Below, in pieces: positions 9,301 to 64,000 of a stretch of DNA of 64,000 bases. The notes under the pieces were generated by a model. It was not told the DNA's origin and searched no databases. It was given only the letters and a program-made list of their open reading frames with translations. Position numbers and translations under genes: made by a program. Each line of letters opens with the position of its first letter. The stretch's first letter is position 1. The stretch spans positions 19,566,812 through 19,630,811 of the forward strand of contig NC_037593.1 in NCBI RefSeq assembly GCF_003073045.1, in the 5' to 3' direction. The stretch comes from Pomacea canaliculata (taxonomy: Eukaryota > Mollusca > Gastropoda > Architaenioglossa > Ampullariidae).

Positions 9301-12300
9301 TACAGGAGAGGGTTGACTGACGTCACGTTGTACACAGCCGAGTTGTTGAGGATCAGATGCTCCACTTTACTTTCTGACGTTGGCAGAGTCAACTCGGGTG
9401 TGTTAGCCGGGTACTGCGTCTTATTTCTTTCGCTCTGGAAAATAGGCAGCCATTGCATTAAATCATATTTTTAAACATAAACCATCACTACTTTAATACA
9501 ACTAGGGCTTTGTGCGGTTCTTGTTTTGTTGTGTGCATGCACAAAAAAATATGACAAACAAACAAAAACAACACAGAGACACACACAGAGAACGGTCGCA
9601 TGACAATGTCTACCTTCATGAAGGTATTTATGTGCTCTAGAAAGCACTGAACTTCGATGCTGCCGGTGACCGGGTTCCGACGCAGGTGAAGCTTTTCGTT
9701 CTGAGTGGCCGACAGATTCTTCAGTTTCTCGCAGAAATCCTGGTCATGGGCAGAAAGGCAGATTGATGTACTGCAACTGACTTTCATCATTACTCACATC
9801 CTATGAACAACGTGCTTAAAAAGTTAGAGAAAAAAAACAACAAGTGGCGGGCATTTCTCCTAAAAATTCGGAAGAGTATAGGTCAAGATAATATTTACCT
9901 AAAGCTAAGGGTATACCTGCCTCTCAGTTCACTAGATACCTACAGACATCCTTAAAAGGTAAATGTCCGTGTGTGTGTGTGTGTGCGCGCGTGCGCGGGC
10001 GTGGCTATGCAAACTAGATTAATCAACCGAAATAATTACATATTTGAGTTTTTATTTTACTATTTATAATTCTTATAACTGGCGTTAGACTGCCGAGAAG
10101 GAGACACAGGGTCGTTCCTTGCGTCATCTGTGTACAGGGCACACCCAGACCACCAGCCTGGAGACGACAACATATCACAACACACCGAGAGAAACAGTTG
10201 CACTGAGTGGGAACCCTTGCACAAGAACCCGGGTACTGACTGGGACCCGTGCACCCGACCTGGACATTGGCCTCGCAATGAATGGATTTTCTGTCGCACC
10301 ATGACACGCACGTCGAGAGATAACAGAAAACAGGAAGCAGATAACAGTCACATCATGCAGAAGGAATGTACGAGAAATGACTTGTGAAGACAAGAAAAAA
10401 AGTGCAAGAGGACTGAAACTCTTTTTAAGTTTGTTGGTTAGGAGCATAGGGGGTGGGGAGAACAAGACTGAGAGTCGCATACCAGCAAGGCGGACTGAGC
10501 GCGTTTGGGGTTGAGGTCGAAGCCCTTGTCCCACACTGTGACCCCTTTACAGTTGATGTCAGTCTTGGCGCAGGTGGACAGGTCCTGCTCCCTGAGACCC
10601 CACACCATGTAAACTTTGATCACCTTGTCCTCTGTGCTGGGCTTGAAGCCATCGCGTATCAGCAAAGCAGCCTTGCCAAAGTGATGTTCATTTTTGTAAT
10701 ACTTTATCTGGTGAAAAAAAAAACAGAAATATTGTCTTTGAGTTAGTGGGACCAGCGCAAACTAAATTTTATTTTTAAGATTTCGACCAATTCACTCTAG
10801 AACCACTTTACTGGAGGAAAGATGTGTGTGGTGGTGGATACATGTCACGTGACAAAGCGTTCACATCCACCAGCACAACAAACCTTGTCAGAACTGTTAC
10901 AGTTTGACAGTTTGACCAAAGACAAAAATTAACTAGGTAAAGATTTGTAAAAAAAAATTTGCGGAATTTTTAGAACCCATTTTTGAATTTTGATCATTAA
11001 CGTTTAAGCATTTCATAGGTGAAATCTTAAACATAAAACTGTGTTCTTACCGATTCTTCGTCAGGTTTCAGTTTGGCAGCGAAAACGGAAAAAACAATGA
11101 TAATTCCAAGACACAGAGCAAGTAGTACCCAGCGCAGCACTCTGTGGCTGACAAGGTTGTAAAAAGGTCCGCGGAAGAACCTGACGATAGGATGGCGACG
11201 TTCACCATCAGCAGATGCTGCGTCCTTGATCGGTTTTTTACACCTGTGGAAAGTGAAGAACAGTGTGGATGTGACTGCATACCTGTCATATTCTTTTCAT
11301 TTAAAAAAAATGGCAATTAGAAGTCGGAAGTTTTTGAAAGTCATTAAGCTAGAGTAAGTCGTTGCCCTGGGGCAACGAGAGAATTTAAGGACAAGCATCT
11401 TCTGTCCCAAGTGATGGGACCCCGCAGGTATGGTTGCACCTCTAGGGCATATCGTAGTTATAAATATAGTTATATACCGTAGCTATAAATCGGTGACAAG
11501 GATGCTCTTCGGTAAAGAAACACAAAGCAGAGTCCGCGGGGTCAGGTAATCAAGACATTTTTCCTCGAGTTCCTTATTTCACCCTGGAAAACTTCATAAC
11601 TAGGGTCTCTGATTAGTTTACTTCAATGTTTTATCACAACGGAAAAAACTCAGCAAGAACAGATGATAAGCTACAACACAGATTTAGCACATAAATCCAA
11701 CTGTGACTGACCCCCACTTTTACCCTACCTCTTGAATAAATGAAAGCGAAGTTCAAATCTTTATATACAAAACAAAATCTTCCATTGGTGCAGTGGGATG
11801 ACTAACCTGAAACAGGGCCAGGACCACGTGTCCCAGTAGTAGTGGTACATGATCAGGACGGCTGGGAAGAAGATGATGACGGACATGTAGTTGACGAAGA
11901 CCAGGATGCCAGAGAAGAGGCCGAAGGACTGCACGGCGAGCAGAGGAGACAGCGCATTGCTGAAGAAGGCCACCATGGTGGTGAGGGAGGTGCAGAAGGT
12001 GGCGATGGCCGCCCGTTTGTAGCAGGCTGACAGTCGAGCCTCCAGCGAGGTGTACTCCAGGTGGGCGGTCGCGCGCCAGTTATCCACGAAGACGAAGATG
12101 TTGTCAGCGCCGATGCCGAGGATGATGAAGATTGAGAGGACGTGGAAGATCCCGAAGTACTTGTACTGGAAGATAAAGCTGTAGACGAGCGTGGCGATGA
12201 CGAAGCTGGAGATAATGCTGAAGATACCAAAGCTCGTTAGGAAGAGCGATTTGGTCATGAAAAGGACGAAGAGGAAAATGAAGAGGAGAGAACCAACAGC

Positions 12301-15300
12301 CAGCAGCAGGTCCCAGATCACCTGCAACATTTTATAGCATGATTTTCTATAATTATTTCCCTTCTTTCTGGACAGTAGAGATATCGTAACTGATTTACAA
12401 CCAAAGGAGTCAAGGCACCGACAAAAATTGTGAAAGGTAGGAAATAGAAAAGTGTTTGCTTGAGTAGAGAGTCGTACATAAGCAACAAACATGGACAGCA
12501 AAGACTACGCTACAGTCAAATTATTGCAAGATGATCATAGCATGATAGCGAGCTGAAGATGCCTGTTACCTGCTGCAATAAATTGTAGGTGACAATCTGG
12601 GTGCCGAAGTACAGAAAGTCCATGTCCCCGACTCCGGAGTCCAGCGCTTCGTTCAGAATACCCGAAAAGAAATCCGCTTGAAACCGACGTATTTTCAGAA
12701 GCTGCTCCGTCTTGTTGTCTTCTTTGAGGTTGTAGCCGTCCAGCGGAAGCCCAAACTGAAAGATGGTGCGTGTGATAGAGGATTTGGCCTCGGTCTGGGT
12801 GACACTTCCGTCGACTCCCAGGTGGAGCTGTAGTAACTGAGCTAGCAGGGGTACCTGGGATGCCCCAAACAGTGTCGCTGGTATGTTGCTGAACGTGGTG
12901 TCGTTCAACCCTGGACCGTAAGTTCCGTCGAAGAATCGAAGAATGGAAATGGGCTTGGCGCACTCTCTCGTCCCGCTGCCACCTGTCAGTCGGCAAAATT
13001 TCTTGTACTCCTCCACTCGGAGGAGTCTATCCTCCAGCTGCTTCATCGCCAGAAGGCGCTCCTTGGTGAAGACTGTGGAGTCTCCTGTCAGGTACATCAG
13101 CACCAGGGAGTCGGCGACTTGCGATCGTTCCCCGATGGTGGTGACGTCTGTGTCTTTGCCCACCACCGTCCCGTCCTCGTCTCGATACTTCCAGGCCAGA
13201 GAGCGCAGGAAGGTCGGGTCATCTTGCAGGTCAAGGGGCACGACGTCAAATTTGAAATTAACTATTTTTTTGCTGTCCCACATCGCTAAGGCCAAGGTCA
13301 CAATTAAAATGGCGACGTGGATTCCCAGTGTGATTCCTGGAATAGATTATCGGATGTAGTAGTGAATGATGATGGTGGCGGTGGTGGTTTCGTCAATTCT
13401 TACCTTAGACAGAATTAAAAGTTGGCAATAGCCAATACATTCATTTTTCAGTATTTTAGCTGGTATGTAATCATGATAGGTAAGGTATAATCTCCTTCGC
13501 CCATTCCCTACCCCACCCCCGCCTCCTCAAAAAATAAACAACACGCCAACCGAAAATTTTCAAGGACTTCTTAGATACCATCCATACCGAGATTTCGCAT
13601 TTCATTGCCGTTTTACAAATCTTCTTAACCATGAAAATGTCAAACGTTTGATCAAAGTCGGCAAAGTTGTGCGTGAAGGTGGGAAGAAACCAGTGGTTTG
13701 GGGTGAACAATCAGACTTTGTAATCTTTGGTCAACACACTCAGCTCACTTTAATCTTGCTTGTCAATAGAGTTGCCAACACAATGGGACTCTGGGGCACT
13801 TCGAGGGTTTGACTCTTCAGCACTTTGCCTGGTTAAGAACCGAGGGAGAGCACTTAGGGTCCCACGTGCCTTGCGAGTCTTTTAAATGTCAGCAGACATG
13901 TGATTGTCATGGAGAGAAGGAAGGCTGCACGTGTTGTATCAGTTTGGCACGTGATGCACGTGAGGTTTCTAAGGGACGAATGCTGTGGTGTGCAGACTTT
14001 AAAATGCCGCACGCAGCTCTTTCCGGAAAATCAAAAGGCAGGCCGACCTGACAGACGCTTGGGAACGATTATAGGACAGCAGGAAAGAAAGTGTTATCAG
14101 CTGTTGTGACGTCACAGCTTGAGGTAACATGAGGTTGGTGACCATGGTTTCGTGGACCCATGGCAACAGAACGCGATCTTGTGTATGTGTGTTTGTGTTT
14201 GTGTATGCCTGTGTGCGTGCATCTCTGTATCAGATACACTGTATGAGTGTGTGAGTGCGAGAACGATTGAGTGTGTGTTTTAGAACTATACTCCTTCTCT
14301 CAATCAATCTTTCCTCCCCTTTCCCTCCCCTTCCACCCACAGTCTGAGCACATTTCAGTTGTTGACTAACTGGACGGGGATCCTATTAAAACTGTCAAAC
14401 AGAGATCGAGTCTCCCATGACTACCACCGAAGCAGACTACCTGTACCTTCAGTCAGATTCTACCTGAGCGATGGAAGGAAAACGTGGTGGTCATGGAGAA
14501 TTTCTCGCAAGTTGAACACTACAGGTAAAAGAATAATCGCGCATATATATATAGACGTCAGTTGTCGATCAGGGAGGCCTGTCATCTTAGAGGAGCAGCA
14601 GCGATGTGACTGTTGCACGGTGCCTAACTTGTGAGAACTGTCAGTGACAACAAAGGAGGATTTCGAAACGGCGCAACGCCTTAATCCACCCACCTTAATC
14701 CACCCACCTTAATCCACCCACCTTAATCCACATGTTACAGACCAGACTGTCGAGCACAAGTCTCCGTGCACCCAGCCCCCGGAGTCCGCACGTGACACCG
14801 AGATAATGACTGCTATATCCGGAAGGGCGGCATAAAAGCATCACGATTTTAAATGAATAATAAAACTTAGCTGGTCTCTCATGCAATACCCAAAGCCATC
14901 CGGTTGCTGGTTGTCGTTCCAGACACGGACAGATAAGATTTATAGACATCCACAAGAGACTCGCCCTAAAATATTATCAAATTCCAGGGTGTCGCCGCCT
15001 TCTAGGGGGGCGCCAAGGCAATAATTCAGTCCCTCCACCAGTCTGTGACTGGCTACCGAGTAAGGCCAGACCCACAAAAAATTATCCCTCCTATCAGGCA
15101 CAGTAAAAACAGCATTCAGTTTTACACGAGAACTAAAAAAAAAGTTGTTTGATTACAGAAATTGCAAACAAAACACATCTGTTCATTTTAATGCTGTTTG
15201 TATTTGCAGATAATAAAATTCTGTGTGTGGGTGTGGTCACGATGACCGAGTAGTGTAAGGTCCGGACGTTCGGACTTAAACTTTGCACGAAATGAGGAAC

Positions 15301-51515: not shown

Positions 51516-56409
<4,894 letters not shown>

Positions 56410-56573
56410 TGAGATTGTGATTGTGTGCATGGTTGGGACGTATGACAGAAAGATAAAATTGTTGTTATTTGAGAATTCTGATATGTAAGACATTCTTTAT
56501 TGTGTTGATCTGTGCTTTATTTAGAAGAATACACATTTCCCTCAATCTATTTTATTTGCTGCAGCATGGCATC

Positions 56574-57789: not shown

Positions 57790-60700
57790 TCAGGATGATA
57801 ATATAGATGGGAAGATCTCCAGAAGAGACCTGTTTCTTAAATAGTTTGCACAAGCATTCTTTAAAGCACAGCACATGTCGACGACCTTCTTCGCCTTTTT
57901 TTCCTTGTGTGTAGCTGAGCTAGTGGTAGAAATATTTTCATTTTCAGAAGACTGCTTGACACTTGCCCTTGATATGTCATTTGCCAGGGCCTTATCTGGT
58001 GTTGCCGAAGGACTTGGCTCCTTTATACCATCATGAAATGTTTCACTGATGACTCCCAAAGGAATAAGACACTGTACAAAAAATGGCAGTTTATGACAGA
58101 ACAAAGACGACAAGATTTTTAATCTGTTACATTTAAGTTTAGAATTAAATGAGATTCTGGAAAAAATGAAGTTATCATGATGATGACAAAGGTGTGCTAA
58201 AGATTTAAAATAGTAAACTTGATAAAAATGAATTTAAGTATTTGCCATAACAATGTACACTTAGCGACATGCAGATTGTACTAAGGTAAGACATTTAAAA
58301 AATCTCCAGCAGACTATTTCCCAATATTCTGCTATGTGATGCAATTATAACTAGATATTTCATAATGATAAATGTAACAAATGGACTAGCTAATCTCTCT
58401 AGCAAAGACATTTTATACTGCTGTGTCTCCACATGAACATAATTTGAACATCATTTCACCTGTTCTAGAGAAACACATCTAGCCTCTGCATGATGCCTCA
58501 GCTGCAGTAAGTTTACAATGTTGGTGGGCCATTCCACTGCCTGTGGCTTTAGACCTGCAATATTAGTAGCAAGTGACTGCATTTATACTTTTACAGAATA
58601 TCCAACATTTAGATCAAATTTTACTTTGAGAATATCATCAACAACATTCAAAGTTCAACAATAACTGTGAAAATGGTAAACAGACAGCCTTTTTCATGTT
58701 GTTTCTTTGCATTGTTTCAAAGATGCACTCGCAGGTCTTATTGTCCAGTTTCCTACACTATCTGACCTGTAGACTCATTTACACAATGTCGTGTAGATTA
58801 TGAAATGGTTTTAGTTGCTGCAAAGACTTGCAACTATAATTATGGGAATTAGTAGACATACACATCCCTCACCTTATCAACATATTTATACATGAACACA
58901 GACACAGGACCAAATCATATCAAACTATACTCCTCACCCTTCTGAGAGTTTTTCCATTATGTCCAGAGCTGCTGTTGAAAGGGCTAGTTTTTCATGCCCC
59001 TTACAGGAAAATGTGCTTCGACCTTCAAAGAGGTCAACAAGAATCTTTTCAGATGCCTCTGGCATTTTTTTACTCATGCGCATCCAGATGTTGTCCCCAA
59101 TGTTGATGCTGTGAGGGAGGATATGAGCATATGTTGGCAGGTGTTTGGTGTGGTTGGCTTGGATGAGGTATAGCACTCTTCTATCCTTCGTCTAGAGATT
59201 GAGCCCCATCAACATCATCAAGAAATAATTTTATTCATTTTAGCCAATGGATATTACATAATAATGACAAAAACAATATTCAATATTTTTCACAGTAATA
59301 TTGAAATATAAAACTATACAGGTGTAAAAAATGCAACAATTTAAAAACAATTTCACATGGTAAGAAACATACTTCCATTAGCAATCTTCAATAATAGAAT
59401 GCCTGATATAAATGTAAGCATGCCATTATGTGCATGCACACAAAAACATAAAGAAATCATACAGAATAAAACTCAGAATCTAATCCATGGAATGTTAAGG
59501 CAAACTCAAGGATTACCATTTTTCATAATTTTGAAAAATTTGTTTTCTTGAATACTCACCATCCGTTGTCGACACAAAGCAGTATGAAGCTCATGGCGAT
59601 GCTGCACAGAGGCCATGTAGTCGTCTGACACAAATGTCACCACTATGTCTGCCGAGTCCACTGCTTGTATTTTTGGCATTTTAGAAGTTTGTTTGAGAAG
59701 AAAGGAAGTCACATGAGACATCAGATGCAAGCAGTTTAGACAAAATGGCTGCATGCTTAAAACAGTCTTGTGCATAATTCAGTACCACTCTTTTCAATGG
59801 CTGTTCAGGATCTCGTATTTGAACATCAGCTGGTTTTGATTTTGGCATTTTCAGTTGGATTTCACCTCATTGAAGATGAAGCGGTTGTTGAAGTCTTTCA
59901 TACGCCATGCCTCCAAGACATTTTGAAATGGTAATGGATGTGAGGGCTGGAAAAAAAAAGACTGAAATTATTTAGGCTTGAACTGTAACAAAATTCTATA
60001 TTGAAATGCTACTTAATTATAACAGAAATTACAGTCTGTCCCAAACTAAAAGGGTTAACTACAAAACATAAACAAAAAATTAACAAGTTTTTTTTTAAAC
60101 ATCCTGTCATTTTTCAAGTCATGTTTTCTCCCGTCAGTAGCACTCTGGCATTTTCCCCCTAAAATATTCACACAAAGAGTCAATACAAAATTCAACTGCG
60201 TGTGACTGATGATAAAATTCACTGACTCGTGAAAACCTGAGGTCTGGCTTTTTATAACAAAGCCATTTGTCAATGATTCTGGCCAAGGTGATTTGATCTG
60301 CACGTCTGGAACTCCTCATGTCTAGGATAGGGACAACAGAGAATGAAGCTGGAATTTCCTCAACATCTTCTTCTGCAAGCACTGGGATCAGAATGATTCC
60401 ATCCTGAAACATGGGATCTGATGTTGGCAAGTGTCAATCAGATAATCATTGTTTAAACTTTTACAATGTGTTGCCAAGTATTATATTACCTCTTGTGATC
60501 TTTTGACTAGACCTACACTATAGGTTTAATAGATAGCACTCATGGTCTTTTGTCCAGGTCTAGCAGTGATGAGAGTTGTGTGTAGTTTGCTCTTGAAAGT
60601 GTTAAGGCACAGAGCATTTACAAATGTGAGGAGTATGTTCCACCTTTCCACTGCTATTTGAGTAAAGAAATTTTTGCATAGCAGTTTTATGTTTCTGGTT

Positions 60701-63700
60701 TGTAACTCTTTCTCATGTAATGTCGAACAATAATATCCAGTATTACCAGAGTAATGAATCACAGAAGAAGATACCATAAAAGTGATATAGCAATTTGGGG
60801 ATTTAGAATACTGAGAAGCTAGTAAGAAAGCCAAACCTGCGACAAGAAGCGTGCCAGTGCAATGTTATACTCTTCCTGGCATACTGTAGAGTTGAAATAT
60901 GCTGAACTCAACATGGCTATAACACATTTTGCCTGATCCACTGCTTCATACAGTGCTTCTTGCCAAATTTTACCTGTGAGAATACAAACTTATCATTTTT
61001 TTTTTTAGTGACTGTCACAAAGAATGTATGAAAATTTCACTTGAAATTGACCAAGTACTTAAGCAGTCTCGACAAAGATCTGTTCCAGCTTGTACATGTG
61101 GTTTGTAAATTATTTTGTGTCACCACAGATTTTTATATTTAAGATGGCATTAACATTATCAAATAGAGCAGCTTAAAACAACAATGCATCCTCAGCTTGA
61201 AGTAACGAGTAAACCCCTTTTTGTCTCAACCAACACTGAGATGAGATGGTAAGCTTTATTAAGTCTTCCTTTAGTTAAAAAAATAATACTAAACAACAGT
61301 CACCTGCCCTTAATTCGCTCGTGTCAAAAAAAATCTTCATATCAGGATCAGCATCCTGTAGAGCTCTGTGCAAGTGATGAGGTAGCTCAGGATTCTTGTG
61401 AGCATAAGAGATGAACACATCATAGTTGCTGTTCATTTCGTCTTGATTGTGATGGCTTGTCTTACTAGTGGGTTCAGTCTGCATGTCAGCATCCAAATGC
61501 TTGATCAACAAGGAACAGGCTGTAATAATCTTCCCCTCTGCAGTCTCTCCATCATGTCTTACCCTGATGAGCGGTTAAAACAAAATCTTTGTAACAGCTC
61601 TCATGGATGAAGTGCTTTTACATTTGTAAATGTTTACAAGATGGTTAAAAGCCCTATATTGTATAATCTGTTTCTGATTTTTAAAGGGTGTAAATTTTAA
61701 CTACACTATATGCCAAAAGTAAAATCCTTAATTTCTTTAATCAAGAAAAGTTGATGACAAAATAGTTTTCAGATAAAAACTTTAAGTGATTTACAATAAA
61801 AGAATATATTGCTTTATGTACAGATTGCAATTTTAGTTTTCAATATTATGGGATTTTATTGCAGTGGATTGAGTTCTTACCTGCATTCTGTGTATTGTAC
61901 AAGGGTCATATATGATGGAAGCATGTCAACTGTTTTCATATAAAATGGGGTTAATATGTCTCGGCTAGTCAGACGGTTGCAGCAAAGTGCAATGTTGTAC
62001 TGTTCCAAGCATTCTGACTGTGCAATGTAGTCAGGGGTTAAAACTGCTACAACTCTATAAAAGAGAAATGAAAATAGTTTAATAATATATTTAAAATACT
62101 TCCATAAAAAAACCTTTTAACTAAAAGTCTGTACACTGAAGATAAACCTTCGAAGGGATGGCATGGGAAAACAAACCAAAGAAATTGAAAATATTATGTT
62201 TAGAATATGTAATGTAGATACAACTGATGCTGCACTACTTTAATGACGTTTGCCAAAATATAATCTGAATGAAAGCAGCTGGTAGACTTGGTCAGGATTC
62301 AAAGACATTATATCTGTACCTGCGTGAGTGAATCATTATGTCAAAGATTTCCTCTTGCCAGACTTGCCCATAGTCATGAACAAGGTCTTCTGAATAGACA
62401 ACAATGCTACTGTCAAATTTCTGTAGTCCTTTTCTGATTTGCTCAGCTAAGGTGTTGTCTTCCTTGCAAAATGAAATGCAGACATCATACTTCTTTTCTT
62501 CTTGACTTGGCTTCAGAATGAAACAGAAGATGACCGTCAAAACAATTATCTAGCATGGCTTCATATAAATGTTTTGAATTTCATCAACTATCTAAACCCA
62601 TCTCCCCCCAAAACAAATTATTATGACAAATATTTATATCATTCTTTGTTTACTGCTGTGTTTACTACAAAACAAACAAATAGTACACATCATAATCATT
62701 TCCATGAAAGGACCAACCAGCTTTTACTAAGGGCATTTATGAATATTTAATCAACCTCCATTTACAAAAGAAACAGAGAAAATGCATAGCACATCAAAAG
62801 GAAGTATTCAAACATTATTTCTTGTATAAGTACAGTTAACATTGACTTGCTCACAAAAATAGATCAGTATGAATCCTTACCCACATTCACCCCCTAGAAA
62901 ATCATGCACACCCAAACTCTGTGTGTGTGTATAAAATTAACGTTCTTATGAAAGAATTTGAATCGGTAAACTATAAAGTAATAATTACTTTTTGTTTGTT
63001 CAATATCCTTCCATTTCTTCTGGAGCTTGGAAAATATTTCAAGAAGATCATTTTGGGCAGGAGATAAAGAAGCAGGATTGTTTGTGTACACCACTATCTT
63101 CAGACACTTCAGAGGTAGGCCTGCCCTGATCCAGTTACAGGAGGCAGTAACTATTGACCTTAGAGCTAGGTCCTCAGCATGTCCCTGAAAAAAAAAATCA
63201 TAAATACTGTTATGTTTTGCTTCAACAACAGAAAACTGCAACAGTATCATCCTAAACAAAATACTCCATTTTCTTCTCATCAAAAAAGTGAAAATTACCA
63301 GTTTGGGAATAACTTTACCTTTGTTTCGGATAAATAAACATCTCTGAGACTGTTTCATCAGATGTGTATCATCTGCTGTCACAGAACACACACACTATAC
63401 TGACATTTGCTTACCTGGTTTCCTGCAGCTAATAGAGGTGTTATGACTGTCATTTCTTTGTCATTAAAAATTGGCATCATTGCTCGAAATATGGAACTAA
63501 TCTGAGCAGGCAGTTTTTCATCCTCTTCATCCTGAAAGACACAAGTTATTATTAGCAGCTGTTTACAGGTTGTGAGCTATCTTTCTGCTACTAATTTCAA
63601 GCTTTCCTGTTCACTACCATGTTTGCTTGAAAAGCGCTTTATCCTGTCCATTGGACAAGCTCAAGGAGATTCACAAATGACAAAAGATGGTGTGACAACA

Positions 63701-63958
63701 AAATAAGGTGATGACAAAATAAAACAGTATACTAGATGGTACTATTGCTACTAATATTGTTTTCAAAACTGTTATAGAAAGATAAGTGAAATATAAATAC
63801 ATGTACCTTATTTTCTTGACACTGAAAAGTATGCTATCATCATTAGGAAATGTTTAACAAGACTTTTCGAAGAAGCACGCAACTTCAATAACTACCATCA
63901 GGAATATTTATAGAATTACTAGTTCCATCTGGCCTCCTGTGATTGTTTTTCCATCAAA
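57790..63958 (-). CDS. Multi-TIR protein with macrodomain-like N-terminal segment (5' end outside window)
   Basis: Minus-strand exons, 5' to 3': 63920-63958 (tentative), 63415-63531, 62989-63184, 62320-62510, 61881-62054, 61304-61563, 60837-60973, 60227-60403, 59560-59946, 58938-59191, 58460-58554 and 57790-58071, about 768 residues so far. Residues 1-105 resemble a macrodomain-like fold (VITPLLAAGNQ, RAGLPLKCLKIVVY). TIR1 (about 125-235) opens with KKYDVCISFCKED and has VVAVLTPDYIAQSECLEQYN. TIR2 (268-430) has NYDVFISYAHKNPE, IFFDTSELRAGKIWQ and FNSTVCQEEYNIAL. A third, degenerate TIR (470-620) has ADIVVTFVSDDYMASVQHRH. A Ser- and Lys-rich tail follows, ending LLEIFPSILSS. TIR domains act as immune adaptors or as NAD+-cleaving enzymes; which applies here is unknown. 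Four one-base homopolymer changes (near 62991, 59865, 59689 and 58938) are needed to keep phase; with them the total is a whole number of codons. The segment resembles bacterial-style TIR (TIR_2) more than Toll-receptor TIR. Confidence 0.75.
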
Positions 63959-64000
63959 CTGATGTCAAAATCAGGCACATCAGTCCAGGTAATTATATAA

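Follow-up and report, generated by a model that had tools for sequence, protein, structure and literature searches.

A snail gene with a macrodomain and TIR domains

A locus at the right-hand end of a 64,000-nucleotide stretch of the Pomacea canaliculata genome (the window; C4:19566812-19630811, contig NC_037593.1) raises the question of whether one animal protein can both make and sense a signal derived from nicotinamide adenine dinucleotide (NAD+). The original prediction, made from the letters of the window, proposed a spliced gene with three TIR domains and, judging from two short stretches, a macrodomain. Macrodomains usually bind products of NAD breakdown, and TIR domains often cut NAD. 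On the minus strand, consecutive exons A, B, E1 and E2 encode the macrodomain and are followed by exons E3-E5, which encode a TIR domain. The macrodomain exons, with the upstream A and B included, align with a bacterial protein (L036) over 203 residues at 38% identity (blastp 2.5e-43); because this alignment spans 203 residues with the upstream exons joined, the E1-E2 segment quoted in the original prediction is genuine coding sequence. Exons E3-E5 and E5-E7 (62510 to 60237, minus strand) encode two TIR domains, TIR1 and TIR2, with two stretches passing the Pfam TIR_2 threshold (4.4e-35; 121.3 bits vs. a cut-off of 28), and the joined E3-E7 also matches Pfam TIR (4.3e-20). The macrodomain ahead of the two TIR domains is real, and the layout, presumably that of one protein, is held in common with rare bacterial proteins. 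We read the locus as encoding a cytosolic protein with an N-terminal macrodomain, a catalytically dead TIR1 and an active-looking TIR2, behind which lies a third TIR copy that is decaying or mis-assembled, and as the counterpart of a rare bacterial family of one-protein macrodomain-TIR (macro-TIR) proteins; taken whole, with the assembly and NAD mechanism set out below, this reading seems to us evenly poised between right and wrong.

The window was read on the minus strand and exons were defined from splice sites and reading frames; coordinates beyond the window are C4 positions minus 19566811.

65022-65157, minus strand: exon A, outside the window; first ATG after an in-frame stop; contains GDIT and VDFIFVSAFP; GC-AG type donor
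64323-64497, minus strand: exon B, GDYSAVPGTLIGAL ... RLVCFE; macrodomain exon outside the window
63415-63531, minus strand: exon E1, macrodomain helix and VITPLLAAGNQ strand; phase disagrees with exon B
62989-63184, minus strand: exon E2, macrodomain loop 2, last helices and last strand
61881-62510, minus strand: first part of TIR1; E3 62320-62510 (exact acceptor provisional), E4 61881-62054
60237-61563, minus strand: end of TIR1 and whole TIR2; E5 61304-61563, E6 60837-60973, E7 60237-60403
60134-60236, minus strand: possible extension of E7 as far as a stop codon; the protein would then finish with TIR2
58938-59946, minus strand: TIR3-like module; E8 region 59560-59946 (two frame changes), E9 58938-59191
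57790-58090, minus strand: open stretch, possible 3' exon, without a Pfam family match

The gene had been placed at 57790..63958, with the advice to extend the locus rightward for its 5' exons. The 5' end proved to be misplaced, since no exon is recognised at 63532-64000 and the gene continues to exons B and A, found on the same strand in the 30 kb examined rightward from 62001; at the other end, 57790-58090 is the stretch without a family match.

A macrodomain family shared with bacteria

The bacterial relatives were found with a probe alignment, two rows of which served as probe and are not used here as evidence. Nine bacterial loci (L036-L044) held up in tblastn with the snail protein sequence as query, and in seven of these (L036-L042; Alphaproteobacteria, Nitrosomonas, Anaerolineae and Chitinophagaceae) the macrodomain is followed by a TIR domain in one open frame, whereas L044 is a fragment. 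The seven proteins have the same domain order as the snail protein and similar TIR domains, and their macrodomains are 32-38% identical to the snail domain in the best blastp segment (shorter, 139 columns, for L042); pairwise E-values for the next closest are 8.4e-41 (L037) and 3.5e-34 (L038). The start positions of the snail protein and most of the bacterial proteins align. The bacterial genes differ from the snail gene in having one TIR domain and no introns, as opposed to two or three TIR domains. A set of polar residues peculiar to the family is invariant in 8/8 rows (D47, Y48, K74, D77, R79, C101 and E103 in snail numbering). Structure prediction for one bacterial relative gave a macro fold and a TIR fold, and the profile of the macro-TIR family matches six canonical macrodomains, chosen because our macrodomain profile A3 had matched them, with an hhalign probability of 92.5% (E 4.9e-7). 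Together, the homologues, the fold predicted for one such relative and the profile comparison bear out the macrodomain guess. The hidden Markov model search proposed alongside it had a mixed outcome, in that TIR and TIR_2 were found in E3-E7, but Pfam Macro does not match the snail domain at E-values up to 10; neither does it match any of the seven bacterial macro-TIR proteins at E-values up to 1. Since Pfam misses this branch of macrodomains, animal TIR proteins that carry it may be annotated simply as TIR proteins.

The macro-TIR family is rare in bacteria. Profile A3, at E-values up to 0.001, was run on samples of 398, 301 and 296 genomes from three phyla (995 in all) and matched one genome in the first (the seed only), five in the second (the seed and four weak matches) and six in the third (the seed, the strong match L064 and four weak ones). 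The canonical NAAN..GGG sequence is present in seven of the eight weak matches, the eighth (L068) having no such open reading frame among the five listed. Pfam assigns the weak matches L059, L060 and L066 to Macro and L064 to DUF4145, with no Macro match at 0.01 for the latter; L064 is the single strong new match beyond the three seeds, and has no TIR match. This locus (a 361-aa open reading frame) and L043:690-1724 both carry the same macrodomain followed by DUF4145 in place of the TIR domain, the Pfam Macro match of L043 being weak (14.8 bits vs. 22, E 0.028). In L041:4986-6563, long hydrophobic stretches lie between macrodomain and TIR domain (by eye); this protein is perhaps membrane-bound, recalling the transmembrane (TM)-macro protein ThsA.

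Searches of other collections gave little. A search of the snail genome (440,159,624 bases, 24 contigs) with the snail macrodomain returned four matches, all exons of the same gene, and no second copy. The full macrodomain has no match among solved structures at E-values up to 10, and ankyrin matches of the E1-E2 segment there were dismissed as chance; in Pfam, NCBIfam and PADLOC scans the same segment gave chance-level matches or none. Plasmids yielded nothing credible with the E1-E2 segment (best E 0.5) or the full macrodomain (best E 0.7), and nothing with L036 at 1e-10. Phages searched for the macrodomain gave no match. Scans of genome and viral collections that used just the snail domain returned 44 and 6 stretches, none of which was confirmed, and two further scans of viral contigs gave no match.

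Genes next to the bacterial macro-TIR genes offer hints of ADP-ribose biology, without proving a defence system. At L039:489-2895 a patatin-like phospholipase gene (Pfam Patatin 9.9e-29) lies about 55 nt downstream of the macro-TIR gene, an arrangement like that of a signal maker and its effector. The macro-TIR gene at L042:4965-8479 is near genes for NrtR-NUDIX, an ADP-ribosylglycohydrolase and a DSP-type phosphatase, and a NADAR domain gene (L038:8367-8816) lies 2.3 kb from the macro-TIR gene of its locus.

Conserved positions in the TIR domains

Twelve TIR positions are invariant across the seven bacterial macro-TIR proteins. Of these, 11 are retained in TIR2 and six each in TIR1 and TIR3. 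At the catalytic position between strands C and D, where all seven bacterial TIR domains have Glu, TIR2 and TIR3 have Glu and TIR1 has Gln. Those TIR domains that have been studied require this Glu for NADase activity, and it is found in more than 70% of all TIR domains, according to the excerpts of PMC7075850 (this and the papers below are cited for excerpts of their text). With its Glu retained, TIR2 is a plausible candidate for the proposed link to NAD, but TIR1 is not. The best PADLOC match is the defence candidate PDC-S66, on the TIR part (snail TIR2 1.1e-10, L036 4e-12), and the TIR parts give weak to moderate matches to ThsB models (snail TIR2 1.3e-4, L037 9.7e-7); no PADLOC model matched the macrodomain in the snail protein or in the bacterial proteins scanned (seven of the eight longer ones, L041 being left out). 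Pfam scans of the translations of exons A to E7 found no leucine-rich repeat (LRR) family, in agreement with the claim that an LRR part is lacking. Across the snail genome, TIR_2 matches 95 times (a count of stretches rather than genes), on contigs C1, C3, C9, C10, C13 and C14, with many of the matches clustered in tandem, as at C9:4.46-4.53 Mb, C1:36.3 Mb and C3:7.5 Mb.

The third TIR of the original prediction is less secure than the other two. The TIR3-like part (58938-59946) scores 26.1 bits with Pfam TIR_2, just below the cut-off of 28. Its first exon, E8, has a strong acceptor and a strong donor (at 59560), and E7 cannot reach its frame: as sequenced, TIR2 either reads on until the stop codon at 60134-60136 or is spliced to a frame that is open for 16 codons and then ends. 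Because TIR2 reaches a stop by either route, one protein with three TIR domains is not supported as proposed, and the third TIR would be no more than a candidate part of the macro-TIR protein. Several of the breaks are at or near short A-runs (by eye), and indels can persist at A-runs in long-read assemblies polished with short reads. The Pomacea assembly is of this kind (PMC6129957), and long-read indel errors or true decay are both possible causes of the TIR3 breaks.

A putative NAD alarm and its alternatives

The best explanation of the locus, we infer, is that the protein combines an enzyme and a sensor. Upon infection or stress, the protein would assemble through its TIR domains, TIR2 would cleave NAD+ and release an ADP-ribose-type product, and such a product would be bound by the macrodomain, which would set the activity of the protein, acting either as positive feedback or as a brake. 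The NADase activity, ligand binding (including that of ADP-ribose by the macrodomain) and immune role are all putative, being read from sequence. Several observations weigh against this explanation. By itself, the snail macrodomain gives no signal against canonical macrodomains (hhalign 0.15%); its link to them runs via the bacterial relatives, and the predicted fold is that of a bacterial relative. The canonical NAAN..GGGG loop is absent from the family, which has SAFPxDY..P in its place in 8/8 rows (with the variant SSFP in L042). The Glu of TIR2 is not proof of NADase activity, since most TIR domains have it, and at four of the seven bacterial loci (L036, L037, L040 and L041) no ADP-ribose or defence gene was seen by eye. 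Expression and a single full macro-TIR transcript are likewise putative. Exons A and B join in phase, but the B-E1 junction is out of phase, with two bases remaining at the end of B and E1 beginning at phase 0; the cause could be a small exon that escaped detection, an indel in the assembly, or decay. Finally, the TIR3-like part is out of frame with TIR2 and E8 shifts frame twice. The out-of-phase junction and broken TIR3 mean that the locus could be decaying. In this alternative it would be a pseudogene or decaying copy whose layout reflects a former function, and the single macrodomain copy in the genome, which leaves no intact twin, also speaks for it. We consider this improbable, since exons A, B and E1-E7 are each open within themselves and conserved residues are retained, and given the position of the breaks at or near A-runs in an assembly of the type described above.

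Two further alternatives concern what the domains do. The protein could be a scaffold without enzyme activity, its TIR domains assembling in an adaptor-like manner with other TIR proteins and its macrodomain serving as a protein- or ADP-ribosyl-binding module. The missing Glu and the six of 12 family-invariant residues in TIR1 would fit such a role, as would the large TIR repertoire of the snail and the proposal of adaptor or regulator functions for the invertebrate ecTIR-DC proteins (PMC6321704); the retention in TIR2 of 11 of 12 family-invariant residues, Glu included, would be unexpected of a pure scaffold, and makes this account somewhat unlikely in our view. Alternatively, the macrodomain could be an eraser: by hydrolysing or sequestering the TIR product or ADP-ribosyl marks, it would limit the signal instead of acting as its sensor. 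The invariant polar residues of the family are such as an active site might have, and ADP-ribose-related genes lie near two of the seven bacterial loci, but the loop-1 Asn motif, a feature of canonical hydrolytic macrodomains, is absent, and we regard an eraser as unlikely.

Transfer or common descent

The TIR tree has 51 rows, after eight short rows (five snail, three bacterial) were dropped and TIR3 was left out; of the 20 other bacterial TIR domains fetched for it, 15 are from one genome (G003). Snail TIR1 and TIR2 group with the bacterial macro-TIR proteins (support 85/52), and the 25 other snail TIR domains, drawn from the best 30 of the 95 TIR_2 matches, form a group of their own (support 100/99); because of this selection, closer snail TIR domains may be missing from the tree. 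Neither a single snail clade (AU test, p 0.183) nor TIR1 and TIR2 as sisters (p 0.463) is rejected. Given that these alternative tree shapes stand, transfer is neither shown nor excluded, and the shared order of macrodomain and TIR favours descent of the whole unit from a common ancestor. Tentatively, and with more doubt than belief, we consider that a snail ancestor may have acquired a complete macro-TIR defence protein from bacteria and retained it as an NAD alarm in one molecule, with later duplication of the TIR into a dead regulator and an enzyme; the macrodomain would belong to a type that has a ligand pocket of its own and lies outside all scanned family models.

Other genes in the window

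An exon with a sterol-sensing/Patched domain (11764-12504, minus strand) is part of a Patched- or Dispatched-like gene. The neighbour 3' of the macro-TIR locus (55851-56488, plus strand) consists of AAA ATPase exons resembling, by eye, the proteasome subunit PSMC4.

Comparison with known systems

Among animal proteins, SARM1 is similar in being a cytosolic TIR enzyme with NAD-linked control, and differs in its ARM-SAM-TIR architecture. The ecTIR-DC proteins (Gerdol et al. 2017, via citing papers) are families of invertebrate TIR proteins apart from Toll receptors, with hypothesised adaptor roles (PMC6321704, PMC5549309, PMC6836662). Some of them have two TIR domains (PMC6836662), and family 6 differs from the snail gene in having ARM-like repeats and a Death domain; the snail gene may already be counted among the ecTIR-DC as a TIR protein. 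Uncharacterised TIR clades exist in animals including molluscs (PMC13142454). In the openly accessible literature we found no paper on a macro-TIR or TIR-macro fusion: in the excerpts of PMC8195603 and PMC7159879, TIR and macro domains are listed among the components of conflict systems but not in such a fusion, and those of PMC9334734 mention no macro domain. A review predicts that the macrodomains of TIR systems regulate those systems (PMC9503650).

The closest likeness is to Thoeris, in which a TIR enzyme (ThsB) is paired with a macrodomain reader of ADP-ribose-type nucleotides in a TM protein (ThsA) (PMC11204291). ThsA macrodomains bind ADP-ribose (ADPR) and IAD, and His-ADPR is made by a TIR partner according to a preprint cited in the same paper. 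Thoeris consists of two proteins with a TM effector, whereas the snail domains lie in consecutive same-strand exons of what would be one protein, and the separate ThsA and ThsB genes by which Thoeris is recognised are not present at the snail locus. If our reading is true, animals may, like bacteria, rely on an NAD alarm contained in one protein, which would extend the list of immune parts common to animals and bacteria and offer a compact system for the direct test of NAD-derived signalling by an animal TIR domain. The TIR enzyme and macrodomain reader known from Thoeris as two partners would here be joined in one protein, in an animal as well as in bacteria.
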